Positions 12,491-53,343 of a DNA stretch of 64,000 nt are shown here, piece by piece. The stretch is from positions 56,307,268 through 56,371,267 of the forward strand of contig NC_062213.1 in NCBI RefSeq assembly GCF_902686445.1. Direction: 5' to 3'. Both the position numbers and the translations under genes were made by a program. Every line of letters begins with the position of its first letter. Positions within the stretch are counted from its first letter, which is position 1. This DNA comes from Sciurus carolinensis (Eukaryota > Chordata > Mammalia > Rodentia > Sciuridae). The notes beneath the pieces were generated by a model. The model made no database searches and had not been told where the DNA came from. It was given only the letters and a program-made list of their open reading frames with translations.

Positions 12491-12547
<57 letters not shown>

Positions 12548-15500: not shown

Positions 15501-18500
15501 TTAATCTGTTTTGGTGTGAAGTTTTATCAATATCATTGAGATTCTTTTCATCATTTTTTATATTAATTTTTTCAAGCCACATTTAGTTGGACCATTATCT
15601 ATCAAACTGCCTATACTTTTATGTGATTTGATAAGGAATATTTTATTATATAAAAATATCTATAAAATGTATCTATGGTTAACATTTCACTGTGTTAATT
15701 AAAACCACTTTCCTTTATAAAATCAAGAGTTTGTTAGACCATAATCTCTGTGAGGTCAGAAACTCAATTTATCTTTACAAAATAATAGCTAACTCTTTCA
15801 CAGTGCTTGTTACATGTCTTCATGTACAGTAACCTTCTGTTCTCACAATCACTTCATGAAATGTGACCTATTACAAGTCTCATTTCATAGATGGGTAAAA
15901 GAAGTCAGAGAGATTAGGTGACAAAGTCAGTAAGTGGTGGGATAGAATATAATCATGGCCATTCTCTTAATCATATGTTCTTAGCTCCCATGGTTTTATT
16001 TATTTATTTATTTTGGAACTGGGGATGGAACTCAGAGGTGCTTTACCACTAAGTCACATCCTGGCTTTTAAAAATTTTTTTGTTTTTGTTTTTTCATTTG
16101 AGACAGGGTCTCACTAAGTTGCTTAGAGCCTTGCTAAATTGCAGAGACTGAACTTGAGTTTGCAATCCTCCTGGCTCAGTCTCCTGAGTTTCTGGGATTA
16201 CAGTTGTGTGCCACCATGTCCAGCAGCTACCATGGTTTTAAAGATGCTTTTAAACACTGCACTTTGCTGAATATGACTATCCTATCAATGATTACCCAAA
16301 CTAGAACACCCAAGAAAGGAAAATCATTAATAATGATATCGAAATGGGAGAAAGTTGTCCTAGATCAACTGGTAGCCGAGTCCTGCTACCTCTTGCTAGC
16401 TAAGTGTTAGTTGAATGGATGAATAAATGAATGGGTAGATGACTAATTATATTCGGTTGTAGTACAGAGACTGTTTTCAAGTGAGCTTCAAGCGGATTGC
16501 ATGAGATTAATACAGTCTCAGTGGAGGTGAACACTGACCCCCAAAGATAATTACAAAAGGGAAAAAAGCAGGAAAAAGATGTATTCTTTTTATCATAAGC
16601 TTCTACTAGCCAATCAATGGAACATTAATTCTGGTTCGAGGGAACCTGAGGGAGTATTGTCCACCTAGTAACCAGATGGTCACTGCTGCAATAGTGTCCA
16701 CAGATAGAGTGAGAGTTGGAGAAGCTGCCAAACATTTAACATAAAGTAGAATTGATCCCATGTGGAGACATCTCTATGGCAGCCTTCTGGCTGTGAATCC
16801 AGGAAGCCTGTGCCGCAGAGTCCAGGTCCCCAGTTTCCAGATAGGATCTCTGAACTCCCAGGTTTGGGCCTTAAAGATATCAATGGTGATGGCAGTGTGT
16901 GTGTGTTGCGGGGGGGTGGGTGGGGTGGGGTGGGTGGTGTGGAGCTCACAAGTTGTTTAGTGTTTAAAAAGTCCTAACAGAAATTATACTTCACATCTAT
17001 ATCCAAGTCTACCTTTATTGTATTTTCTTTGAGTTAGAATTACATCAATTTAGTGAGAATATGCTTATTACTATCTGAGGATGATCAGAAATATGAATTG
17101 GCAGGTACAGGTATCTTTGCTTATAACCTTGGCAAGAAAATTTACTAATACTTATTTAAATGGAGTATGAGTTCTAGGTAGGCTCTTTAAAAATCTCTGA
17201 CTCATGGGAAAGGAAATGAGTCCAGGGCAATGAAACTATTGCTGACTACTGGATCAGGGTGTGTGTGTGTGTGTGTGTATAGTTTTGGAAAGCCTTTCCT
17301 GACTCCTCATGTCTTGTGTAATGGAACTTGTACTCTAACCTAGCATTCAAGGCCCTCCCCAGTCTCACCTTCCAGCTATCTACTCCCTCCCCAAAGTGAC
17401 TCCTCCAAATTGGGTCACCCAGTGCCCTGAAAACACACTTTCGGCATTCTCAAACCTGCCCTTGGTTCTCTTAGTCTAGAACATTTTTCTGTTCTCTCTA
17501 TTTAATCTAACACTATTTATTTTTCTAGTTACTGCCCTCTTAAGAACAGATACATGTTTGAAATGATACTATGATTCACATCAAGTAGTGATATGGTTTT
17601 ATTTTCTCCCACGACCTCTATTGCACTTGAAGTCAAAGCCCTTCAAATACTAGTTTCTGACCTCAGATCCTGCTCGGTCTCCCCTTGCATTCTCTGCTTC
17701 AGCCTCACTGGCCTTTGTGTTGTGTCTTAAAAGAACCCAGTACACTCTTACCTCAGGGTCATTGTACTTGCTACTCTCAAATGTCCTGTCCCCAGAGAAG
17801 AGCTGCATGTTTTACCTCCCTCCCTGATTTCATGTTTCTTTTCAAATATTTTCTTCCTTAAGAGACCCTCCTGTACTGCACTATACAAATAGATCCTTCT
17901 ATCACTACACTCCTTATTCTTTTGCCTGCTTTATTTTGTACGCTCTGACGTATTTTATATTATGTTATTAGCTATTCCTCTCCATTGGAATGTAAGCTTG
18001 GTGGGGGTGTTCCTGGTGCCTGGAAAAGGGTCTAACCAAACAGTAGGTGCTTCATGGATATGGAGATAGGGTGACTTTCCCTAGATGAGGAATTTCTTGT
18101 ATTGTAGAGTTTACTTAATGCAATTTCAGATGTCATTTGGAAATTTATTGACTACAATTTGTTTCAGGATGGAAGGATGGAATAGAAAAGAATCAAAAGA
18201 AGTTACATATTGGCATTTTAACATTTAGCCTCAGTTTTATAATTTATTTATTCACTTAAAAGTATTTGTAGTGCTGGGTGCCTGTACTCCCAGCTTCTCA
18301 GGAGACTGAGGCAGTAGGATTTCAAATTCAAGGCCAGCTGGGCAACTTAGCAAGGCTCTGTGTCAAAATAAATATAAAAAGGGCTGGAGATAAAGCTCAG
18401 TGGTAGAGTACTCGTCTAGAATGCATGAGGCCTTGGATTCAATCCCCCCCACCACAAAGTATTTGCAGTACTAACTATTGTTAGGTACTATTAAACAAAA

Positions 18501-19637: not shown

Positions 19638-22600
19638 AGAACTAGCCCTCCACACTTCTCACCCCAGGGATCTTATCTACGTTTCCCTGCAGGTCAGGGG
19701 TGGGCATGTGAAGCAGGTTTGCAAACTGAACTACTGCATCCCCTTGGCTGTAATGACTGGTTTAGGATTGGGCATGTGATCCAAGAAAGGTCACTGAGAG
19801 TCCATTCTAGGACTTTTGTTAGAACTATTGGGAAAGAGAAACTTTACTTTTTGCTGGAGTTGCTATGTTGTGAGAAAAGTAATTTGGCATTGACTGAAAC
19901 TAAATTTTTTTGGTAGTGAAACCAATTTGATGCAAAGAGAAATGACAGATATCAAAAGAAAGTTTTCTGCCAAAACTGCTTGATCACCTGGATTCAGCCG
20001 TTCCTGAGGCATGGCCATTCCCTGACTTTTTAGTCATACATTCACTTTTCATTTCAGCTAGTTGAATTGGATTTGGGTTATTTGCATATCCTCACTAAGA
20101 TATCTGCAGAGATATGTGCACTTACAGAAGACTCTTTAAAGAGAATTAACAGTTCTTCAAATAAGTGCTAATTAAGTCAGTACAATCCAATAGAAGAAAA
20201 TCAATTGATGAATCGTTAAGCTGGTTCTTTCTGTTAATTAGTTACACTTTCTTCTAATTAAAAGTCTACCATTAGGACATAATCCACATAATGATTTTTG
20301 CATTGAAAAATTTTAATTATATGAGAAATGTAATAGAATACTGCTTTTTAAAGTGTTCTAAAAACATATATATTGCTGGCATCATAATGCTGAATGGTTA
20401 CATTTATGAATGTTGTTGAGCTGTGTGGTCAATTTCTAGTTCAGATAAATTGTTTAAATGTGTAATTGTTGATAATTTATTGCTGTCAGGATGCAGGAGT
20501 TTTACCAGAATCATTAATTAGTCACCAAAGGGAGTTTTATATGACTTATAAATTAACACCCAGGTAATTTTGATCATCTCTGTGTTTTTTTTTTTTCCCC
20601 GTCAATAATTTTCTCCACATTAAATACACCTAGCAATACCATTAATGTTCTAAACCATGGTGCTGAACTTTGGTTTCTAGTTTTAATTTCTGGTTAGTCA
20701 ATAACTTTGAATTCTGATCTCTACACATCAACTTACGGCTAGAACATACACCTGTGCCCATCTCTACACCTATTACCTGCAGGATGCCAGTGCTTGGGAG
20801 GGAACTTAAACTGTCTTGAGTGCAGCATGATCGCCACCGTTCCAGCTGGTAATATCTATTGGCAGCAAAGGGGCTGGGGAGATAGCTCAGTCGGTAGAGT
20901 GCTTGCCTTGCAAGCACAAGGCCCTGGGTTCGATCCCCAGCACCGCAAAAAAAAAAAAAAGAAAAAGTTCTATTGGCAGCAAAGTGTTGATGAACTGTAA
21001 CTGAATAATTTAGTCTAGCTTTACCATGAGAAGAAAGCTATCAAAATGATAATTATCTTTTTAAAAAAATGATAATCCCTGCACATATGCTTGGTTTAAT
21101 AGTTCAGTTTCTTCCTGTCTAAATCTGTATTCATAACATCAGTAATTGATAAAATTGTGGGGTGTGTGTGTGTGTGTGTGTGTTTGTGTGTCTTCCAATA
21201 CTTGGAGAGCCTCACTCAGGTGAAAATTAGAGTTGAGATTAATATGTTACATATCACGGGAAGATATTTTTAACCACAAAGTTCAACATTTTCTCATTCA
21301 GGAAATTTAACCTGAGAGCTTCTAATCTTTGGGCTTTTTATTTGATATCAAACCTATTTATGTATGGATGTGTAATATACATACACATGTAGGTACATAT
21401 ACACACATGTGCACACACATACACACATGTTTGCTATGTTTGCTCTGTGTTCCCTGTTGGAGAATTTAGTCTTTGGAAAAGGTTGCTTTTCATTCTTTTT
21501 GTAATTATCCAACACAGAAGTGTATAATGTGTTGGCTGGCTTTTTATAGAAAATGTGTTCATAAAATAAAAAAAATGTATTAAAAATGCAAAATTTCCTC
21601 TCTAAGACCTTATGTGGAGTGTATTTTTAGTGACTACATGAGTCTAAAAATCTATGTCAAGGCTTAGAAATGGGTAGAGGGAGACACCAGAGATCTCAGA
21701 AAAGGTCTTGATCTTGGAAGGACTAACTTCAAGGGCAGAGAGGGAGACTCTGAGCAGGAAGCCCTTAGACTGGGGGAAAACCACATCTGGGCTGGAAAGA
21801 TCTTGGGGAGAAGAACTGGTAATTAATAATTTCAAGGAAAATCATGCAGGACACTGGGGGTGTGATGCAGACCCTGAAAGGGAGCATTCGCCACCTCTGT
21901 GCCTCCACTCTGATCCCAGAAGTCGCCTAAGGCTGTGCTTTCTCTAGAGCATCCATACTGATGACTAGGAGGGAGGTTGTTATGGTAAGAGATCTAAGAA
22001 GAGGAGAGAGGACACTGAAGCTCTGTTAGCCTCTGAGAACTCTAATTTTGGCTAGCCTCAACTCAATGTTTGTTTAACCATAACTGAGGAAGTTTATATC
22101 CCAGCAAGCCTGACTCTGTCTACTGAAGACCTATGCATGTGGGATGGACAGGTTCAGGTGTTACTGTCCCCTGAAAACTTTGGTTGAAGTGTGTGTCCGT
22201 GTGTCTGTGTCTGTGTGTGTGTGTGTTGTGTGTGAGAGAGAGAGAGAGAGAGAGAAAGAAAGGGAGGAAGGGAGGAAGGTAGGAAAGGGAGAGAGAACTT
22301 AAAAACCTATGGAAAAATTACCTTTCTTCTTTCCTCTGCAGCCTCCAGTTTTTTCTGGATCTCCTCCAGGGACAGGTCTTTCTTCTTTGGAGAAGCTAAA
22401 GTTCGTGGGGCTTCTGAGATAGGAGATGGTGGCTTTAAGATCAGCTCAAAAGCCTGGCCAGAGGCACGTTTGTTGATTTGCTTCACTTCCATATCTAAGA
22501 AATGAACATTGAGGAATATTAAGCATGTGGAACTTGAAGCTTAGGTTTATTTTAATAATTCGGATTTCAGCAATTAAAAGTAGTATTCTTACTCTAGGAA

Positions 22601-25900: not shown

Positions 25901-28900
25901 CCTTGTCTTTAATGTCTTTCTTTACAAATGTGGAAAGGAAAAATAATTGTGAGCCATCAGGTAGCAAACTATGCCTCAGCTATACTTGGCATACCTACAA
26001 CATCATCAAACATTTTGATGACTGAATTAGATGAAGATAATTTTGTTGATAATGACAGTTACTATTGTCAAGTGCTTCAGGGGCCAGGCTTGGTGCTGAT
26101 GTCTGATTTGCATTAAGTCATTTAAACTTCATAGCATCCCTGGGAGGAGATGCTAGTGTTAAATGAGGCTGAGAGAATCTAAGAGTCGGCTTGCCGGAGG
26201 CCACATGGATAGTGGAAGAGCCAGAAAGGAAAACAAACTAAGCATAATCCATCAGGATAGATCAAACCTAGAAGGTTGTGCTTCAGTGAAGTTCTCATGC
26301 CAGCTATTTGAAATGGGGGGAGGGAGGGAGGAAGGGAGGGGTTGTCTTTTTAAATCCTCTTTGCCTCGAGCCTCAGTCATAAGTCAGTTTTGTTTTTTAA
26401 TTCAGTTACTGTTATTAACTTGTTGGTATACATATGCAAAATCTAGGAACTTCATAATGAAAAATAGTGATGGTTTTTGATTTTCTCTTGAGTGTTCTGA
26501 GTATAAAGCATTTTCTTACAAATTCTGATCTACTCTAATTGCAGCTTAGTATATATTACATTATTTGTTAAAGCCTTAGACATACTGTGGATGTTGATAT
26601 ATTGGATGTGGCTGCTAATAACAACTCAGCCATGCTTCTTAAGAGACATTAATGTGCTGTTATTAGCACCAAATTCAAACTGTTTTGAGCAATAGGCAAT
26701 CAATAAGACCTAATAGCTAGACACAGCAAGTCAATAGCAAGATCTACAAAAATATTGATTTAATTATACCAAGAGCTATGAGAAGGAAGCAAATATAAGC
26801 AAGCTTTTGCAAGTGATCTTGCTAGCAGGGCATTTCCATTTGGGCACTCACCATCATAAGTGTAGATGTTGATGTTGCGAGGTTCCGGGTAGAAGCAAGA
26901 GCAGATCAGTGACAGCATGGACAGCTCCTTCATTTTTTCCTTGTAGGCTGAGAAGAAAGACTCAAGTTAGGACCTTTTGTTTTTTGAATTTCTTCTTAAT
27001 GCTTCTCTAAATTTAAAATAATAATTATAGCATACTGCAGAATGAATACTGCCAGGTCCACTGCTTTGCTTTCTTTCACAATGAATAAACATGTCGAGGG
27101 CTGGGGTTGTGGCTCAGTGGTAGAGCTCTTGCCTAGCATGCATGAGGCATTAGGAATGATTCTCAGCACCGCATATAAATAAAAATAAATAAATAAAGGT
27201 CTGTTGACAACTAAATAAATATTTTTAAAAATGTCGACAAAGCCCTGAGAAGTATATTCCTTATTACAGAGGACATGAATTGCATAGTATAGCAAGTTAG
27301 TTAAGAAATGAAAGGGTGTTAGATGGAAAAGGGAAGGAATTAAGATCCAGTAGGATAGGAGGGAAAAATAGGAAAGATATAAGGGAAACAGATTCAATTA
27401 GCAGAGAGACAGAACTGTTCTAGAAAACATAAAAGCAAGTCTATTGTATGAAAGCAAGATTCAGGAAGGTTCAGCCTGAACCATCACATACTCATTTGGG
27501 GATGGTCAGAGAACTAAGGTACTAAGCAGAAACATCCTTTAGGGACATTTTCTTGCTGCTTTCTACCATCCTCAAGTACATTGTCTTACCTCTTCCTCTT
27601 CTCACAACTACTGGGTTGTGAGATGTGACAGGAACTCCTTTCCTGCCTCTGAAACCCAGTTGCCAAGCAGCTGCAGGACTGCAGAGTGTGCTGGCCCTCA
27701 CTCCCCGTCTCCATTACATTTTCTCCTTTCTTGTTGAGAAAGCCTCCTACTTCCTGGGTAAACTTGGCGAGCATCTCACTACTATTGGTTTTAAACAGTC
27801 AGAAGGGGATAAGAAAGCAGGACCCTTTCACCTTTGTTGATATCTAATTAGTGAAATCAATAAATGAAGGAAAGCGGAAGAAAAGAGGCATGAGAAAATA
27901 AGGCATGAACAGAGGGCATGACCTAGCACACTGCACTTAACAGGTAACGTTTGCATCTTGGCAGGGTCATTTCATCAGCACTGTAACCCAAGGGAAAGTG
28001 GGTACCTTAGGAAGGAAGGAATTCCTAGAAGATGGATTTGGACATTATTGGCAGGTGCATCTTCTTTTGGTCATTAAGATACTGATTCAATAATTAAATG
28101 TTTAGAGTCACAAAATGTTAGACTGAGAAGTTTCCATGAGAAAGTAGGAAACCAAGCCCCAAAGAGGCCCAAGTCACACATGGGCATGGATGAAGATGGG
28201 GTCTCTGGAAAACTGTAGTAAGTTAATCAATCTATCTCAAGATTACTGAGAGTTTTCTAGCTCTACCATTTAGGATGAGATCCAATAGGCCACAGTCAGG
28301 GCTGAGAATGTTGGCATATTGTTGAACCAGACACAAAGATCAAATATTTTCAGTCTTATATAATTCAATCTAACATGTCCAGAGGACCTGCTAAAAGAAC
28401 CTCTGCTGCTTATTTCCTTAAAATAAACCACACGATTTGCCATGTGCCTTAAAAGTCCTTGCCATAACCCATTCTGAGGAACTTTATTAAATGCCTTTGC
28501 AATTTTAGAGACTGAATCATACTTCTTTGTCTTATTTATTTAGTTAATGAAATTCCATCCCTTATAAAGACCTAAGCAGATCTTTACATGGATGTTCAAT
28601 GTAAATCACAATTTCTATCAGAGGATAGCACATTTGGTGGTTTAATACATTTAATTCCATGAGCTGACTGAAAATAATAACATCCAGGCTTTTTAGGCTA
28701 GTGGTAAGTTTTTTGTAAGAAAATGCAATATGGTATCCAACAAAACATTTTGCAAAATTAAATATACAGTTAGCCTTCTATATCTGTGGGTTCTACATTC
28801 ATGGATTCAACCAAAAAGTGATGGAAAATATTCAAAATAAAAATTGCTTCTGGGCTGAACACATATAGACCCTTTTCAGTAATCTATAGATGATTTAAAA

Positions 28901-35026: not shown

Positions 35027-38000
35027 CACATATACATGCTTTTTAAAAATATGAAATATAAATACTGTCAAGGTTTATAATTATCTGATGTCAAAAAAGC
35101 AGAAGCAGTAATTTTGTTTTTGAGCAACAATTTTGTTTCTGGCAGTATGAGAGTGACAGAGCCTGAGATGAGTGTAGAGCATCTTACTATCGCTTCCATG
35201 ATGCAATTATCTTCAGCATCCATTTCAGAGACAGCTGAATCGGGTGAAGGACAATCTTCAGGTTAACCCAGATAAGCCACTGAGCAGTGCTTTTGCGTTT
35301 TGGAATTCCAATATTACTTCAAGCTTTGTCATGTGAGGACTCATTTTCTGAAATAGTTCCCATCAAATCATACTCTAGAATTTTAGTATAATTTTCTGCC
35401 AGGAACCTAAAGCAATATATAGAGCAAGTAAGTAATGCATCTGAAGCCTTTGCATTCTAGTTGGTTTGTGTCATCCAGTTTATGTTATAAACAGAATGAA
35501 AATGTGAAAGGCAACTTAGTCTAGGATAAATTTTCCAAATTTTATTAGTTTTTTTTTCTGGATTTTTTTTCCCTTTTTCTTTTTGGGTACTAGGGATTGA
35601 ACCTAGGTCCTTGAGCATGCTAGGCAAGTGCTTTACTACTGAGCTACACGCTTAGGTTTTTTTTTTTTTTGAGACAGGATCTCATTCAGTTGTCCAGGCT
35701 GGCCTCAAACTTATAATTCTCCTGCCTCAGCTTCCTGAGTAGCTGGGATTGCAGGCATATGGCAAGGTACCTAGTTTGTTTGGATGTTTGGAAATAAAAG
35801 CTTTAAGAAGTGACCATTTTCACATATCGTCAAAGAAACATTTGTCAAAGGAAGACATACAAAAATCCAAAAGGTAAATAAGCAAATGTGTTCAACATCA
35901 CTAAGCATCAAAAACCACAATGAGATATCTTCTCTCACCTGTTAGAGAGGCTATTATAAAAAAAAAAGACAAAAGATAACATGTGTTGGTAAGGATGTGG
36001 AGAAAAGGGAACCCTTGTACACTGTGGGTGTAATGCAATTAGTACAGCCATTACAGAAAACAGTATAGAGGTTCCTAAATTAAAAACAGTAGGATTCAGG
36101 AATCCTACTTATGGTTATGTATTAAAAAAATGAATCTGTATGTTGAAGAGACATCTGACTTTTAAGTTCATCGCAGCACTATTAACAAAAGCCAAGATAT
36201 GGTATCAACCTAAATGTCCATAATGTGTGCACCCACACACACTCACACACTGGTAAACTATTTAGTTTTAAAAAAAGGAAAACTCTGTCACTGAGGACAA
36301 ATGAATGAACCTGGAAGACAAATTTAGTGAAATAAGCCAGGCATAGAAAGATAAAAATTATATGTAAGTTGAACTTACAGAAGCAGATAGTAGAATTGGG
36401 TTACCAGGGCTTGGTATAGGGGTGGAGGAATAAGGAGAGGTTGTTCCAAGGGTACAAAGTCTCAAATGGCATGAACACATTCTGGAGATTCACTATACAA
36501 CATGGTGACCAGTTAGTAATAACGTATTTTTTTTTACCTGAAACTTGTTAAAAGAGTAGGTCTTAAAGTATAAATTTAATGAAGGAAAGAAATGGTCATT
36601 TCCGATGGCACAAAAGTTTTGCATGCTTGTGCTATGATAAATGAAGTTTTGTTATTATTCTAGGCTCAGTTATCACTTTGCCTTTAGCAAATGGTCACAG
36701 AGAAGATGAGGTCATTGAAAACTGGATTTGATTTACTTGAAACAAGCAACTACATAGCACAGAAAAGACAGAAAGATTTAAAAAGTAATTATATTCTTTT
36801 GCAGGTTAATTTCAAAAAATGCTTAAAATAAGGTTGTTAAAATAAAGGTAAAAATAAGAATTCCAGTGAGATCAGGAACATTTGTTCACACCTTGAAGAA
36901 ATATATTGTAAAGAGTGTTTTTTATTTTTTTTAACTATGGAATTTTAATCTTCCTTTTATATGATAACTGGTTTATTTGGTTTGGTTTAAATTATCTTTC
37001 CAAATAGTTACCTTGAGTTCATTAATAATAACTATTAATAACTTTGCATTTTATCTTGTGCAATTAGAATCACCAGTCATAGCATCTTGTACCTGGAAGG
37101 AACAGTAGAAATCCTCTAATGATATTCTGATTTTATAGACAAAGAAATCAGACCTAAAAACCTTTATTTCTGCAACGCTGCTCCTCGACCCTTCGGGGGT
37201 GGTTGGTGGTGGAGCAGTAGTAGTAGCAGGGACAGATCGGCCAACAAAGTGGGAAAGAGATGTGACTGGAATGATGGTAGGCTTTAAAAGAAAATCAGTA
37301 TTTTTATTTGATATTTGACTTTTTTCTCCTGTTTCTAAATCTGCTAGTACATTTTTAGTATCGGGCAATAAAAAACAAAACAAAACAAAACACAACTTCT
37401 TTTGCTTTGTGGGAGACCCCTCTAGTCTAAAATCTCTTCCCGAGCACTTGGAGCAGCCTTTCAAGGATGTCACATTTTTCAGTCCTTCTTGGGAAGGATA
37501 GTCTTCAGTCTGTGAAGACCATGCTTCAAATTTGGGTAATAATTTGGGGGCAAATCCAGAAGCGTGGCACTCTTTGCGACTTAGTCTAACCATTGCCATA
37601 TATGTGCAATTTTTAATGCTTTCAGAATTTCTCCAGTTAAAAAATTTTCATTAAAAACAATATTTCCCTTTGATTTTACAAAAACATGTTGCTTCTATCT
37701 TAGATACAAGCACAAGTCTGGATTAATCTCCTGCTATACAGAGGAAAATAAGCATCAAGTGGTGATTGACTTAAATAACCTTTAAGGACTTTGAGGACTT
37801 CAGATGCTTTATTCTGTGACTTATGTCAGTCACATCATGTCACTTAACTTCTCTGGACTCCTTTTTATCATTTATAATTAGTTCCTCAATGCTTTGGGAT
37901 TTGAATTCTACATATTTAGCAAACTTTGCTTTTTAAGTAATTTTCCCATTACATACACATTCATCTTTTTGTGTTTTCTTCAGTAAGAGCTTTCTTTACC

Positions 38001-47000: not shown

Positions 47001-50000
47001 ACACTACTTTTGTAATGTGTATTAGCATGTCTTGAATTGCAACCCTTGGAAGTTTCTCAATTTCTGGGACCCTGGAACAAACTGTTAACAACAACAAACA
47101 AGAAGGAAGGAATGGATAACCTTGAGACTTCATCCGACTTTATGTTGAGTAACAGTATATCCTACTACCTCTGTGCCCAATTTTATTTGGGATCATGTTT
47201 TTAATGCATTATTTATTTGGGAAATGCTCTATTTCTAATTTGAGACATTTTATATACATTATCATTTTTGCAGGATAACATTTCCAGAAATGTGGTAATG
47301 TTTGTGTGGTCAGTCAACAACTGTGTGGAAGAAGTAAGATGTGATATTTTTGATGATATTCTTCGAAGAACCAAGTTTTTCCCCACTAGGTTGATTTTCT
47401 TGGAAAGGTAGTATTGAATAATGGAGGTCCTCTGTTGGATTAAGTAAGCAGAAGGAAAAAACCCACAATCTGTTTTTGAATATACAGCCATAATCAATAA
47501 ATTCTTAATAATTTTCTCATGTGGTACCCAGGAAGAAATACTGTTAGGATATTTTGATAAGTACTAAGTATGAAATAAAACCACAGATACATTTAGTGTG
47601 GTTTAATTCTCTTTTAAGTTCTTCATGATGTGGAGTATTTGTGGTGTAAAGTTTGAATTTGAGGTTACAAACTTTCACACATTTTCTCATATCCAAAAGG
47701 TTGAGGTTGAACTTTTGTTCTGCACATCATTTGCAAATAACAGTAAGCTAACATTATTATTTATCATACTTTCTCAATTGTGCCACAAACCACATTCATT
47801 TCTTAGGCAGGCAGGCAGGCAGGCAGATACACATACACACACCCACAGAGCCAGTTCCTTATTTTCCCCACATTTCTCTTGAAGGTCTTCTGTTGAATCC
47901 TGCAATATAAATATATCTAAAAAATCTAATTGAAAGAGAGTGATGACACAGAACATATAATCCTCAGAGGAATAAAATCCCTAAGTATGCACGAGTTTGG
48001 AAGTGAAATATTTTGTAAAGATTGCCATGAACTTAAACTTGTTAAGATGTAATATTAGGTTCTTATAAGGGGTACGTGCATATCATAATTCTTAAATTGA
48101 TGATTTGGTGGTCAGAATCAGAATCATCTGGGAGCTTGTTAGGAATGCAGAATGTCTGGCCTCATCCCAGGCATACTGAATCAAAATTTGTACTTTAATG
48201 AAAATCAGATAATTCATAGGCACATTAAGATATGAGGAATACAGCGATATGACACTATTAAATATTTTACAGGTGGATTACAGTTACATAAAATGTAAGA
48301 GAAAAATAATTTTCCTTCTAATGCAGACCTGAGAAAAATTCACTAGTGATGATCCTAGAAATTGTGCTGATCCTTTGCTGCTTTAAAATGAACATCAATT
48401 TTCTACTAAACTAATGAAACTATTATAAGGAGATGCTTGATAGTTGTTGAAAGCTAACAAAAATCGAATTGAAATCACATTATATTTGGTTTGAAAAGGC
48501 ATCTTTTAAATGGAAAAGAGAAATAGAAGACCAGAAAAAACAGGAACAGTTTTCAGGATCCCTCCTCAGTATCACACTATAGATACCTGCTTTACCAATA
48601 GAGCCTGCAGCTTCCCTGAAGGTGGAGACTCAAATATTAGGAGTGTCCAAAATGGGACACATTTTAAATAAAAAAATAGGTAAACAACAATTTTAATTTC
48701 TATATTTAAATATTAAAACATTCTGTTTCTAAATAATTTTGCTAATAATACTTACATTTTCTGACATTTCCTACTACTTATTCACTTACTTATTCAAACT
48801 CCAGAAGTAACATAAATGATATTATAATAACAACTTAATGAAACTAGAATTAACCAGGGACTAAGCTTACTTGCAGATTATGATCATTCATTTCATTTTA
48901 ACTCAGTCAAAAATGCCCAGACCCTTTTCATTCACTAGTGCAAAGAATAACATTAATTTATTGAACAAACGTTTGAAAGTTCCCAATAAAAGAAAATAAT
49001 TTACTAAACAGTTAATATTTAAAGCAAGATTTTAAATCATCTACTTCTTTAGAGAACTTGACTGCCCTCTAGTGGAGTAAAAGTTAACGCAGACGCCAAG
49101 GTTTTCCAATTGAGACAATCAAGGAGATTCTGGAAACAACTGGGTCACTAACTAATTCAGTATTTTCCTCTGCACTGGCATATTTATTTCGTTTTTCACA
49201 TAAGGACACTGATATTGTGACAACAGAATAATGTATGTTTTTCCACAACCAAAAGGAAATTGGTGTGAGCTGGGGTTAGCTATCAGCACTGTGGGGTTGA
49301 CCACACCCAGGTCCAGTGTGTGCGGTTGGTTAGCTTCCACTGCTCTGAGGCCAGCTTCATCCAGGTTTTCGTGAGCAAGGAGCTACTGCTCTGGCATGAA
49401 TATAGAGTCCATCTTATTCAGTTGAAATAAAAACCAACAGGGATTGATAAATCAGTAATTTTCCTAAACATGGCCTGGATTTATCAGTGACAAAATTTTC
49501 ACTTCAATATGTAATTAACTCATCTTTCATTTCATTTTTTGTTATTCAGATTTTACTTAAAAATTCTGCTTGATAGCCACTATTTGATATTCACAGAATT
49601 AATTAACTATTTTGATCCTAAATAATAAAGAGGAAAACTATTATTGCATGAATCAACTTTATGGCTCTCTGAGAGGGCATTTCTTGACTCTAAATATATG
49701 TAGTTTGCAGCATTTTATCACCAGAATGAGTGTTTTGATGATACTGTGTCAAATAATCACATGCTTATCTCATAATCTATTAGCAAATTAAAATAAAAAA
49801 CCAAAAGTAATTAAACTTTTTAATGCAACAAATAATATCTTGGTAAAATTTTGAAGGGCAGAGGCATTGTTCTGACAAAATACCCCTCTCCTTTAGAATA
49901 ATATACTACAAATATGTAAATCATATTGCAAAACCATTGTGAATATTGATTAAACAAAGTTCTAGATTTTAATATCTCAAATCATCCAATCAACTATTAT

Positions 50001-53000: not shown

Positions 53001-53343
53001 CCCCATTAAAGGCAAACAGTTAAGGTAGCCCGCTCCAATCGCAATTGAGCTTTAATTTTAAATATGGAAAAAGTAAATTCCCTATCCATGGGAGGGCAAC
53101 TTACCTGCTTCTATCTTCTTAAAGAAATCCTTCGCTTTGGATTTCCAAGGATTCCCTTTTTGCCCTCCCACCTCCCCTAGAGCTACCTCCGACCTTCCTG
53201 GCTCCTGTTACCATTAACGTCTTTTTCTTTATAAAATATCTCCGAATGCCTTCAAAGCTCTAAGCGAGCAGGTGAGAGGCGAACTCCCGGTCGAACAGAG
53301 GGAGAACGAGGCGCGATGCCTTACCCATTGCTGTTTTAGCCAT
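3740..53343 (-). CDS. STMN2: STMN2 (stathmin-2, SCG10), complete five-exon coding sequence
   Basis: Joined minus-strand exons 53343-53325, 26947-26852, 22494-22322, 10853-10662 and 3799-3740 give 540 nt, or 179 codons plus TGA, the usual length of stathmin-2. The protein is a neuronal, membrane-anchored stathmin. It binds alpha/beta-tubulin dimers and promotes microtubule dynamics in growth cones and regenerating axons. Visible parts are an N-terminal membrane-targeting region with Cys22 and Cys24 (palmitoylation sites in the family), a proline-rich linker with Ser62 and Ser73 in SP contexts (JNK sites), KRAS Ser50 and RRKS Ser97 (PKA-type sites), then a long charged helical stathmin-like domain to residue 179. 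The start ATG at 53341-53343 has a strong context (A at -3, G at +4). No residue differs from the human protein as I remember it. All introns are GT-AG. It is the only gene recognised here. Confidence 0.98.
4395..4518 (-). mobile_element. Sciurid ID-type SINE
   Basis: The reverse of an ID element is visible as GTGGTGCTGAGGATCAAACC (reversed B box) through GAGCCACATCTCCAGGCCC, preceded by TTAGTTGTAGATGGACACGA, the tail of squirrel ID copies. Confidence 0.8.
5190..5425 (+). repeat. MIR SINE
   Basis: GAGCATTTATTAGGC, CATGGCAATCCTATCAGACA, CCCCTTTTTACAGATGAAGA and AACTGAGG with a following CTTGCTCAAG follow the MIR consensus in plus orientation. Confidence 0.8.
6905..7120 (-). repeat. MIR SINE
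   Basis: TTTGTGGCCTTGCCAAATGG, CTTAACCTTCC, GTGAAATGGTGATACTAACA and ATGAGCAATCAATAAAG match the reverse-oriented MIR consensus. Confidence 0.75.
8500..8606 (+). repeat. MER5A fragment with (ATATCT)n microsatellite
   Basis: TCCTCAAACCTGGCTGCATA and TTGGAATCACGTGGAGAG are the left end of MER5A, a hAT-type DNA transposon relic. About eight ATATCT units follow from 8554 to 8602. Confidence 0.65.
10662..10853 (-). CDS. STMN2: STMN2 exon 4 (stathmin-like helix)
   Basis: The 192 bases make 64 complete codons, residues 97-160. They start [19 protein letters not shown], with Ser97 forming a PKA-type site with the RRK at the end of exon 3. They end [10 protein letters not shown]. The region is a continuous charged amphipathic helix with the stathmin tubulin-binding repeats. 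The acceptor is TCCACAG/TCT and the donor is AAAG/GTAATC at 10661-10660. Both junctions are phase 0. Confidence 0.98.
12489..12548. repeat. (GA)n microsatellite
   Basis: About 25 nearly perfect GA repeats, with a single GGGA interruption near the end. On the transcript strand it is a long CU tract inside intron 3. Confidence 0.95.
15780..15982 (+). repeat. MIR SINE
   Basis: CAGTGCTTGTTACATG, TCTCATTTCATAGATGGGTA and GATTAGGTGACAAAGTCAGT follow the MIR order. It is interrupted at its right end by the B1-dID insertion. Confidence 0.7.
15983..16240 (-). mobile_element. B1-dID dimeric SINE with target-site duplication
   Basis: The reverse of an ID half (TGGGGATGGAACTCAGAGGT onward) is followed by the reverse of a B1 half ending GGGATTACAGTTGTGTGCC. 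The flanking repeats AGCTCCCATGGTTTTA (15983-15998) and AGCTACCATGGTTTTA (16225-16240) match at 15 of 16 bases. The (TTTA)n at the left end is the reversed A-rich tail. Confidence 0.88.
17280..18065 (+). repeat. LINE-2 relic
   Basis: AAGGCCCTCCCCAGTCTCAC, a TTTTCTTCCTTAAGAGACCC block, TTGGAATGTAAGCTTGGTGG and ACAGTAGGTGCTTCATG match the L2 3' end in order. Ends are approximate. Confidence 0.7.
18259..18465 (+). mobile_element. B1-dID dimeric SINE with target-site duplication
   Basis: The B1 half starts GTGCTGGGTGCCTGTACTCC. The ID half starts GGGCTGGAGATAAAGCTCAG and has a B-box-like ATTCAATCCCC. AAAGTATTTG at 18259-18268 and 18456-18465 is the duplication. It sits within an older interspersed repeat, which resumes after it. 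Confidence 0.88.
18808..18978. repeat. Palindromic TA-rich microsatellite and tandem repeat
   Basis: TATCTATATC units run into their own reverse complement (TATTGATATAGATATAGATA). Three copies of AATATCTATTTTTAGRGAAT follow, two of them with CAGTA and TTTTTAAAAGTTGA. The first part could extrude as a hairpin. Confidence 0.8.
19599..19636. repeat. 38-base T run
   Basis: It is an uninterrupted T run. It resembles the A tail of a minus-strand retroelement, but no recognisable element body follows. Confidence 0.9.
20855..20984 (+). mobile_element. Young ID element with 16-base target-site duplication
   Basis: TCTATTGGCAGCAAAG is repeated exactly at 20855-20870 and 20969-20984. Between them is an intact ID body with A box (TAGCTCAGTCGG), B box (GGTTCGATCC), the CCCAGCACCGC end and an A tail. 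The perfect duplication marks a recent insertion. It is antisense to STMN2. Confidence 0.95.
21160..21430. repeat. (GT)n and (CA)-rich simple repeats
   Basis: A GT array lies at 21160-21190. A degenerate ACAC/ATAC stretch lies at about 21367-21430. The DNA between them is non-repetitive. Confidence 0.8.
22195..22285. repeat. Compound (TG)n(AG)n(GGAA)n microsatellite beside exon 3
   Basis: A TG array passes into an AG array and then GGAAGGGA units. On the transcript strand this gives a CCUUCC/CU/CA tract starting about 35 bases after the exon 3 donor, the kind of sequence bound by PTB and hnRNP L. Confidence 0.9.
22322..22494 (-). CDS. STMN2: STMN2 exon 3 (proline-rich linker and start of stathmin-like domain)
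   Basis: The exon has 173 bases, from the last two bases of codon 39 to Lys96. It holds [11 protein letters not shown] (Ser50), then [20 protein letters not shown] with Ser62 and Ser73 (JNK sites that control turnover in the family), and the first part of the tubulin-binding helix ending AAEERRK. The acceptor is TTCTTAG/AT and the donor is AAAG/GTAATT at 22321-22320. A long pyrimidine and CA-rich microsatellite lies only about 35 bases beyond the donor. Confidence 0.97.
22939..22977. repeat. (TG)n microsatellite
   Basis: About 19 TG units, about 450 bases upstream of the exon 3 acceptor; CA-rich on the transcript strand. Confidence 0.95.
23340..23790 (+). mobile_element. LINE-1 3'-end fragment
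   Basis: CACCAACATGGATGAACCCA, AAGCCAGGCACAGAAAGATA, GTGGTTACCAGAGGCTGGGG and ACATGATAAAT are the typical end of L1 ORF2 and its 3' UTR. It is heavily 5'-truncated and has no coding capacity. Confidence 0.85.
24175..24505 (+). mobile_element. MER2 (Tigger-type) DNA transposon relic
   Basis: GGATACCAAAATTTGAAGAT, GCTCAAGCCCCTTACATAAA, CAGGGAATAATAGCAAGAAA and GGTTGGTTGAATCTGCTGAT follow the MER2 consensus from end to end. It is non-autonomous and carries no transposase. Confidence 0.8.
26045..26245 (+). repeat. MIR SINE
   Basis: CAAGTGCTTCAGGGGCCAGG, CATTTAAACTTCATAGCATC and AAATGAGGCTGAGAGAATC match MIR in plus orientation. Confidence 0.7.
26852..26947 (-). CDS. STMN2: STMN2 exon 2 (membrane-targeting region)
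   Basis: Ninety-six bases complete codon 7 and run to the first base of codon 39. They encode [18 protein letters not shown] followed by [13 protein letters not shown]. The pair Cys22/Cys24 in ICSCF is the palmitoylated Golgi and vesicle anchor of SCG10-type stathmins. The acceptor is a pyrimidine-rich tract ending TCTTCTCAG just above 26947. The donor is ATG/GTGAGT at 26851-26850. Confidence 0.97.
27091..27237 (+). mobile_element. Sciurid ID-type SINE upstream of exon 2
   Basis: The body GGGCTGGGGTTGTGGCTCAG through TTCTCAGCACCGC is followed by an AAATAAAT-rich tail. Short flanking repeats ATGTCGA lie at 27091-27097 and 27231-27237. It lies about 150 bases from the exon 2 acceptor, antisense to the gene. 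Confidence 0.85.
28765..29030 (-). mobile_element. MER2 (Tigger-type) DNA transposon relic
   Basis: ACAGTTAGCCTTCTATATCT, GGATTCAACCAAAAAGTGAT and ACTGCAGATTTTGGTATTCA are MER2 ends in reverse orientation, with a shortened middle. Confidence 0.75.
29331..29532 (+). mobile_element. MaLR-type LTR, 3'-truncated
   Basis: GGACTGAATGTTTGTATC, CATATGTTCAAATTTGATACC, a GAGGTCTTG block and CTGCCATGTGAGGATACAAG follow the MaLR LTR order. It stops abruptly where a B1-like SINE head begins at about 29533. Confidence 0.6.
29533..29562 (+). mobile_element. Truncated B1/7SL-type SINE head
   Basis: GCCAGGTGCGGTGGCACATG followed by CCTGTAATCC is the start of a B1/Alu-like element. The sequence after this is unrelated. 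Confidence 0.7.
30425..30650 (+). repeat. MIR SINE
   Basis: TATTTATTGAGCACAAAGAA, TGCTATGAGAAAGGTACTAT and AACAACTTGCCTAAAGTCTG follow MIR order. Confidence 0.75.
30868..31330 (+). mobile_element. MER2 (Tigger-type) DNA transposon relic
   Basis: GTGCCAAAATCTGAGGATGC, AATGGCATAGTATTTGACAA, GATCTCTAGATTGTTTATAA and AGTCCGTACAAGTTCAGTAC match MER2. About 60-90 extra bases interrupt the left half. Confidence 0.8.
34535..34568. repeat. 17-base tandem duplication
   Basis: AAACCCATGCTATGTAC occurs twice head to tail, perfectly. Confidence 0.95.
34990..35022. repeat. (CA)n microsatellite
   Basis: About 16 CA units; GU-rich on the STMN2 transcript strand. It is therefore another possible TDP-43-binding stretch in intron 1. 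Confidence 0.95.
35550..35780 (-). mobile_element. B1-dID dimeric SINE
   Basis: A reversed ID half (TACTAGGGATTGAACCTAGG to GAGCTACACGCTTAGG) is joined to a reversed B1 half (GAGACAGGATCTCATTCAG to GCTGGGATTGCAGGC). Confidence 0.85.
35800..36590 (+). mobile_element. LINE-1 3'-end fragment
   Basis: CATCACTAAGCATCAAAAAC, GTTGGTAAGGATGTGGAGAA, CCTAAATGTCCATAATG and GTGAAATAAGCCAGGCATAG are the end of L1 ORF2 and the 3' UTR. It is broken by many stops and frame changes. Confidence 0.88.
37051..37599 (-). pseudogene. Unidentified 182-codon open frame in intron 1
   Basis: An open frame with ATG at 37599 also continues open for at least 20 codons upstream. It is unusually long for this AT-rich intron. 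The middle part, with [19 protein letters not shown], a Lys/Ser/Cys-rich stretch and [14 protein letters not shown], looks like real protein sequence. The last 30 or so codons overlap repeat-like DNA. An imperfect (TTTTG)n run interrupts it. A retrocopy fragment of an unknown gene is the likeliest reading. I could not name the parent and see no poly(A) tail or target-site duplication. Confidence 0.35.
39870..40440 (-). repeat. Two MIR SINEs
   Basis: Copies at about 39870-40085 and 40210-40440 both read in reverse MIR order. The first has GGGCTCTGAGGCC and CCTTGTAAGGTTCTTGGCAT. The second has CAAGTCACATAACTTCCC and AAATAGAGATAACAAAACTG. Confidence 0.75.
41450..41554 (-). mobile_element. Young ID element with target-site duplication
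   Basis: The reversed ID body runs from GCAGTACTGGGGATCGAACT to GCTATCTCCCTAGCCC, with a T run at the left. CATCTTTGT at 41450-41458 and 41546-41554 is the duplication. It is in the same orientation as STMN2. Confidence 0.9.
43380..43610 (+). repeat. MIR SINE
   Basis: ATTTATAAAGTACTTG, GACAGGAAGTTATTATTCC and AAATTAGAGATGCTGGAAAA weakly follow MIR order. Confidence 0.5.
43735..43880 (+). repeat. MER5A relic
   Basis: ACCACCTGGGAGTTAGTTAG, GGAATCAGAACCTCTGGGAG and CAAGTGCTGCTGATGCTCAG match MER5A, a non-autonomous hAT element. Confidence 0.75.
45480..45565 (-). mobile_element. ID-type SINE
   Basis: GCTTGGGATCAAACTGAGGG through CAAGTGCTCTACCACACTGA, followed by CCCAACCC, is a diverged reversed ID. 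A TTA-rich simple repeat precedes it. Confidence 0.65.
46618..46800 (+). mobile_element. B1-dID dimeric SINE
   Basis: The B1 half starts GAGCTGGGCATGGTGGTGCA. The ID half is GGCTGGGGATGAAGCTCAGG ending CCCCAGTACTGGAAAAAAA. Confidence 0.88.
47602..47607 (-). terminator. Nearest ATTAAA downstream of the cryptic exon
   Basis: ATTAAA on the minus strand is the first AATAAA/ATTAAA hexamer after the cryptic acceptor, about 290 bases into the exon. Weaker variants GATAAA (47765-47760) and AATAAT lie earlier. It could end a longer cryptic exon, but no usage evidence exists here. Confidence 0.3.
47806..47825. repeat. (GGCA)5 microsatellite inside the cryptic exon
   Basis: Five perfect GGCA units on the plus strand (TGCC on the transcript strand) directly follow the GU-rich tract. 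In human, as I remember it, this spot is a GAGA/GACA stretch with a single CTGCC unit, so the array looks like a lineage-specific expansion. Confidence 0.85.
47826..47850 (-). promoter_or_regulatory. GU-rich TDP-43-type binding tract in the cryptic exon
   Basis: The transcript strand reads GGGTGTGTGTATGTGTATC, a run of GU dinucleotides with two or three GUGUG-type sites. It occupies the same place as the GU-rich TDP-43 site in the human cryptic exon. In human this site is what keeps the exon silent. Function here is inferred from position and composition. Confidence 0.7.
48095..48225 (+). repeat. MER5A relic
   Basis: AATCATCTGGGAGCTTGTTA, TCATCCCAGGCATACTGAAT and AATTTGTACTTTAATG match the MER5A left and middle parts. 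It lies about 200 bases from the cryptic exon acceptor, on the intron-5' side. Confidence 0.65.
51100..52790. promoter_or_regulatory. GC-rich, CpG-dense block in STMN2 intron 1
   Basis: Two CpG-dense cores, about 51150-51330 and 52300-52680, are joined by GC-rich sequence with fewer CpGs. The block stands out sharply from the AT-rich surroundings. It begins about 0.5 kb downstream of exon 1 rather than over the start site. Many long overlapping open frames exist on both strands, but they are a by-product of GC content. The block may be a CpG island with enhancer or antisense-promoter activity; no exon structure can be shown. Confidence 0.7.
53099..53107 (-). other. Perfect-consensus 5' splice site inside intron 1
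   Basis: CAG/GTAAGT on the minus strand, with the cut at 53105/53104, lies 220 bases downstream of the normal exon 1 donor. It matches the donor consensus better than the annotated G/GTAAGG. Use of it would extend exon 1 and read through to a stop at the 20th-30th codon. Confidence 0.5.
53325..53343 (-). CDS. STMN2: STMN2 exon 1, coding part
   Basis: Nineteen coding bases encode MAKTAM plus the first base of codon 7. The donor follows directly as G/GTAAGG at 53324. Intron 1 therefore interrupts codon 7 after its first base, and exon 2 supplies CC to complete Ala7. The same phase lets the cryptic exon at 47899 be read in frame with a different residue 7 (Gly). The exon continues upstream as 5' UTR; its transcription start cannot be fixed from sequence alone. 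Confidence 0.96.

Follow-up and report, generated by a model that had tools for sequence, protein, structure and literature searches.

TDP-43 disease is marked by loss of stathmin-2 through STMN2 exon 2a, the cryptic exon that silences this gene in human ALS neurons. In the human gene, as the work of Baughn et al. is summarised (PMC10336091), TDP-43 bound to a 24-base GU-rich motif in exon 2a sterically blocks the 3' splice site, and this splice site, rather than the poly(A) signal, causes the cryptic splicing. A cryptic exon of UNC13A is said to be conserved among most primates and not in mouse, and STMN2 to be similar (extract of PMC8891019). Depletion of TDP-43 also produces last exons with new 3' ends in ARHGAP32, RSF1, and SYNJ2 (extract of PMC12586162). 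TDP-43 cryptic exons as a class are said to be unconserved in mouse, mice, or rodents (extract of PMC10983882), and for STMN2 the extracts of PMC12697360 and PMC10336091 state that exon 2a is not conserved in mice, so that the human exon was knocked in. Among the matches listed in a literature search, which gave titles and the starts of abstracts, there was no report of exon 2a outside primates, squirrel included.

We analyzed a window of 64 kb, that is, the whole stretch of squirrel DNA presented here, in which the minus strand carries the five coding exons of STMN2 (Table 1). Intron 1 is 26.4 kb long, and an earlier note on this DNA had placed a counterpart of exon 2a 5.4 kb into it. That position proved right: exon 1 ends at 53325, the first putative base of the exon 2a counterpart is 47899 (minus strand), and 5,425 intronic nt separate the two. 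The minus-strand text across the start of the counterpart reads ...TTTATATTGCAG/GATTCAACAGAAGACCTTCAAGAGAAATG..., the slash marking the splice point. Acceptors, donors, and branch motifs were scored with matrices and not with a trained predictor; by the donor matrix, the donor of exon 1 scored 8.13, at the 98.65th percentile of same-strand GTs. A (GA)n microsatellite of 44 nt was also seen at 12493-12536 (plus strand), in the intron that separates STMN2 exon 3 from exon 4.

Table 1. Coordinates of STMN2 exons and of features at the exon 2a counterpart (slash, splice point)
Feature	Position	Strand	Remarks
STMN2 exon 1, coding part ATGGCTAAAACAGCAATGG	53343-53325	-	ends ATGG/GTAAGG; donor GTAAGG from 53324
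Acceptor region, ends TTGCAG	47900-47944	-	score 6.49; extra AGs end at 47926 and 47917
Exon 2a counterpart, 5' part	47829-47899	-	alignment to published human letters
In-frame stop TAA after exon 1-2a join	47859-47861	-	exon position 39-41; 19-residue peptide
GU-rich tract, candidate TDP-43 site, TGTGGGTGTGTGTATGTGTATCTG	47824-47847	-	15 GU/UG steps in 24 nt
(GCCT)5.5 microsatellite	47805-47826	-	aligned opposite human GAGAGAGAGACAGACAG run
TTGTGGCACAATTGAGAA	47771-47788	-	matches published human exon 2a primer site, 16/18 identical
ATTAAA, nearest AATAAA/ATTAAA hexamer	47602-47607	-	exon position 293; TGTATCTGTGGTTTTATTTC within next 35 nt
STMN2 exon 2, normal splicing partner of exon 1	26947-26852	-	
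STMN2 exon 3	22494-22322	-	
STMN2 exon 4	10853-10662	-	
STMN2 exon 5	from 3799	-	last codon ends 3743

For comparison with the squirrel sequence, letters of human exon 2a were taken from open-access papers. The 93-nt NanoString probe (printed in PMC9310392) and a forward primer (printed in PMC10441763) overlap and together cover the first 101 nt of the exon; further downstream lies a reverse primer of 20 nt (printed in PMC10838224). On either strand of the 64 kb, the best local match to the 101-nt query was at 47892-47829 (minus strand), with a score of 61, and 51 of 60 aligned columns were identical, with 4 gap columns. Shuffled queries scored 24.7 ± 2.0 with a maximum of 35, and none of 200 reached 61. 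The first 45 nt of the query, which precede the GU run, scored 44 against a shuffle maximum of 33 (0/200). The second-best place in the window, with a score of 50, was at 22210-22254 (plus strand), in a microsatellite of the form (TG)n(GA)n. The 20-nt primer piece was weak alone, as 3 of 200 shuffles reached its score; it stands in order, 112 nt into the exon. The data showed that the clear match to human exon 2a claimed earlier is beyond chance on the published letters, and that it is the best place in the window. The sequence blocks named with it, GATTCAACAGAAGACCTTC, CTGCCTAAGAAATGAATG, and TTGTGGCACA, were likewise present, the CTGCCTAAGAAATGAATG block being 3 nt shorter than in the human text. 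When human exon 2a was completed to a total of 227 nt, 154 of 194 aligned columns were identical, a figure that depends on human letters beyond the printed ones.

From the sequence comparison, the view that this stretch is the ortholog of the human STMN2 exon 2a sequence is well supported, and the proposed origin before the primate-rodent split could be upheld for the DNA alone. Slowly evolving intronic sequence can be expected to align between human and squirrel anyway; from orthology alone it does not follow that the common ancestor was able to splice this exon.

An acceptor, TTGCAG/GATTC, stands at the start of the exon 2a counterpart, with its AG at the same base as in human. Its score of 6.49 by the acceptor matrix is at the 94.4th percentile of same-strand AGs and falls between those of exon 3 and exon 5, the acceptors of STMN2 exons 2-5 scoring 10.80, 6.15, 10.76, and 7.68, respectively. 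Within intron 1 it ranked 94th of 1,726 AGs, 93 scoring higher. Pyrimidines occupy 9 of the 16 positions from -20 to -5, versus 12, 12, 12, and 13 at the four real STMN2 acceptors, and two extra AGs lie upstream, at -26 (score 4.41) and -17 (score 1.04). The best branch-like motif within 60 nt, ATCAC at -42, was moderate (3.04, 96.9th percentile). The good acceptor ATTTATATTGCAG/G of the earlier note is thus present and scores within the range of real STMN2 acceptors, but it is a middling one in view of its few pyrimidines and the two AGs upstream. These two AGs lie in 47927-47916 (minus strand); if splicing used the one at -17, the frame would shift and 53 residues would precede the first stop.

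In squirrel and human alike, the densest GU tract starts at exon position 53, with 15 steps in squirrel and 16 in human. Only three clusters as dense as the one at 47847-47824 occur in the 26.4-kb intron 1. The GU-rich tract was thus kept, as had been claimed, in register with human and as a candidate TDP-43 site. Beside it, (GCCT)n replaces part of the human GU/GA run, being aligned opposite the human GA/CAGACAG run. This (GCCT)n abuts the GU tract, and its length may vary among relatives, which would alter the context of the candidate TDP-43 site; another (GCCT)n microsatellite is at about 11726 (minus strand). At default settings, no inverted repeat was found in 47300-48300, where AGGC was the only repeat family. 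The second dense GU cluster of intron 1, at 36310-36249 (minus strand), has good acceptor-like AGs directly upstream, one scoring 8.51 (first exon base 36310) and one scoring 6.69 (first exon base 36290); in-frame stops come after 13 residues. There was no AATAAA or ATTAAA within 400 nt of this cluster, which may be regarded as another candidate TDP-43-blocked pseudo-exon on its sequence. The third dense cluster, at 35037-35004 (minus strand), contains a long (GT)n run, and no acceptor passing the filter given below lies within 100 nt upstream of it.

Next to be compared are the stop and the 3' end. In human, the published letters read MAKTAMGLGRRPSRER and then TAG at exon position 30-32, which ends a peptide of 16 residues. 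The human in-frame stop, claimed to be kept, is not: the squirrel TAA lies three codons further on, and the intervening sequence has substitutions and an insertion of 2 nt, although an early in-frame stop itself is present. Human exon 2a is 227 nt long, with an ATTAAA at position 204. In squirrel, the first 227 nt from 47899 contain no AATAAA or ATTAAA and only the weaker variants AAGAAA, AATGAA, and GATAAA. The human ATTAAA aligns to a partly deleted and substituted squirrel stretch, and a premature poly(A) signal at the human position is absent. The exon end at 47673 given in the earlier note was simply the human length of 227 nt, and it was not supported as the true 3' end, no AATAAA or ATTAAA lying inside. 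The ATTAAA at 47607-47602 is followed by a stretch in which 21 of 30 nucleotides are G or T.

We also examined how often these signals occur together. The filters were an acceptor score of 6.48, a GU tract as dense as the one described above within 100 nt, and an AATAAA or ATTAAA within 400 nt. Among 1,728 sense-strand AGs in intron 1, 96 passed the acceptor threshold, and 3 of these 96 also had the GU tract. Only one of the three, namely that at 47899, had a hexamer as well. On the antisense strand of intron 1, none of 1,756 AGs passed the acceptor and GU filters. In the whole window, 3 of 4,148 sense AGs and 3 of 4,369 antisense AGs passed both; since the thresholds were set at the observed values, all these counts are descriptive and carry no p-value.

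Repeats elsewhere in the window were recorded as well. ARAGORN called a tRNA-Ala(tgc) at 20875-20948 (plus strand), in an ID-like repeat, and Rfam gave tRNA matches at 20883-20940 and 27103-27171, both of them ID-like repeats that match an ID repeat at 76.7%. Neither the two Rfam matches nor the single ARAGORN call fell at the exon 2a locus. At 18260-18460 (plus strand), 16050-16235 (minus strand), and 35600-35790 (minus strand), an ID-like unit comes after a 7SL-type unit, and the pairs are apparently dimer SINEs. In two of these places the 7SL-type units matched B1 at 79-80% along 53-75 nt, and in each of the three they matched short parts of Alu at 80-93% along 35-55 nt, so B1 and Alu were not told apart. 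Dimers of 7SL and ID units mark squirrels and their kin. No paper on this dimer family was found in the literature search, and of seven short squirrel ID repeat patterns six were absent from the window and one was found once. With these mixed outcomes, the repeats make a rodent source likely and a squirrel plausible.

The explanation that we tentatively prefer, at a little under an even chance, is that the exon 2a counterpart is a poised, TDP-43-blocked pseudo-exon in squirrel. TDP-43 on the GU tract (47847-47824) would cover the acceptor at 47899, so that exon 1 would normally join exon 2. Upon loss of nuclear TDP-43, exon 1 would be spliced to 47899 and 19 residues would be translated before the TAA (47861-47859); the transcript would end past the ATTAAA (47607-47602), near 47590, giving an exon of about 305-320 nt as compared with 227 nt. 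Both governing parts, the 3' splice site and the GU tract, stand in register in squirrel, and it is by this analogy with human that hiding by TDP-43 is predicted. We infer in the same way the binding of TDP-43, the repression, and the use of the acceptor at 47899 and of the poly(A) site.

However, given the weak pyrimidine tract and the extra AGs, it is almost as likely that the acceptor is too poor for use. The intron would then be orthologous and the exon non-working, with slow divergence at the locus and an acceptor context and 3' end too weak even without TDP-43; either primates gained the competence of the exon or the squirrel lineage lost it. This is a serious possibility, somewhat below even. 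Besides the few pyrimidines and the two upstream AGs, it would account for the human stop not being kept, the human-length interval devoid of AATAAA and ATTAAA, and the microsatellite turnover in the tract, and the literature calls the exon, the binding site, or the regulation unconserved in mice or rodents (extracts of PMC8891019, PMC8876536, and PMC11948778). However, the AG, the G at +1, and the GU tract are in register, the acceptor scores within the range of real STMN2 acceptors, and of those three extracts only one speaks of rodents, the other two speaking of mouse or mice, and none names squirrel.

The counterpart might also be used on TDP-43 loss in another form, either within the transcript as a poison exon or by splicing to a different AG, and not as a terminal exon at 47899, which we regard as unlikely. 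The lack of AATAAA and ATTAAA in the first 227 nt would suit such use, as would donor-like GTs inside, the best being TGG/GTGTGT at 47842 (6.14) and AAT/GTGGGG at 47871 (5.69), and the score of the AG at -26. However, these inner donors score below that of exon 1 (8.13), the best one sits within the GU tract, and within 300 nt there is an ATTAAA followed by G/T-rich sequence. Chance resemblance to human exon 2a, which is extremely improbable, was rejected on the shuffles and the position: although the human exon is partly low-complexity, the score of the 20-nt piece is reached in 3 of 200 shuffles, and a score of 50 occurs elsewhere in a (TG)n(GA)n microsatellite, none of 200 shuffles reached 61 for the 101 nt (maximum 35) or 44 for the first 45 nt (maximum 33), and the match stands in the right intron and the right order.

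In a rodent that carries its own counterpart, the step from TDP-43 to stathmin-2 could be tested without engineering. The squirrel counterpart would also help to date the parts of the exon, the acceptor and the GU tract being common with human and the stop and the poly(A) site apparently free to change. A repressed exon needs no selection to stay functional, and the changes in the stop, the poly(A) signal, and the microsatellite would fit drift. It is possible, though on balance we doubt it, that squirrel STMN2 is naturally TDP-43-controlled, such that stathmin-2 would fall when nuclear TDP-43 is lost, by way of the squirrel's own exon 2a with a stop and a poly(A) site of its own; the switch would then be no primate peculiarity, with mouse as the exception. 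Where the exon is described as unconserved in rodents, mouse may be what is meant.

Compared with the known systems, the squirrel locus has in common with human STMN2 exon 2a the gene, the intron, the order of acceptor, early stop, and GU tract (position 53), and the downstream blocks. It differs from the human exon in its stop and peptide (19 versus 16 residues), in the two-nt insertion, in (GCCT)n opposite GA/CAGACAG, and in the next ATTAAA, which is at position 293 versus 204 in human. The UNC13A cryptic exon is, like human exon 2a, TDP-43-repressed and disease-linked, but it has both an acceptor and a donor and belongs to another gene outside the window. The cryptic alternative last exons of ARHGAP32, RSF1, and SYNJ2, which appear on TDP-43 loss, belong to other genes.
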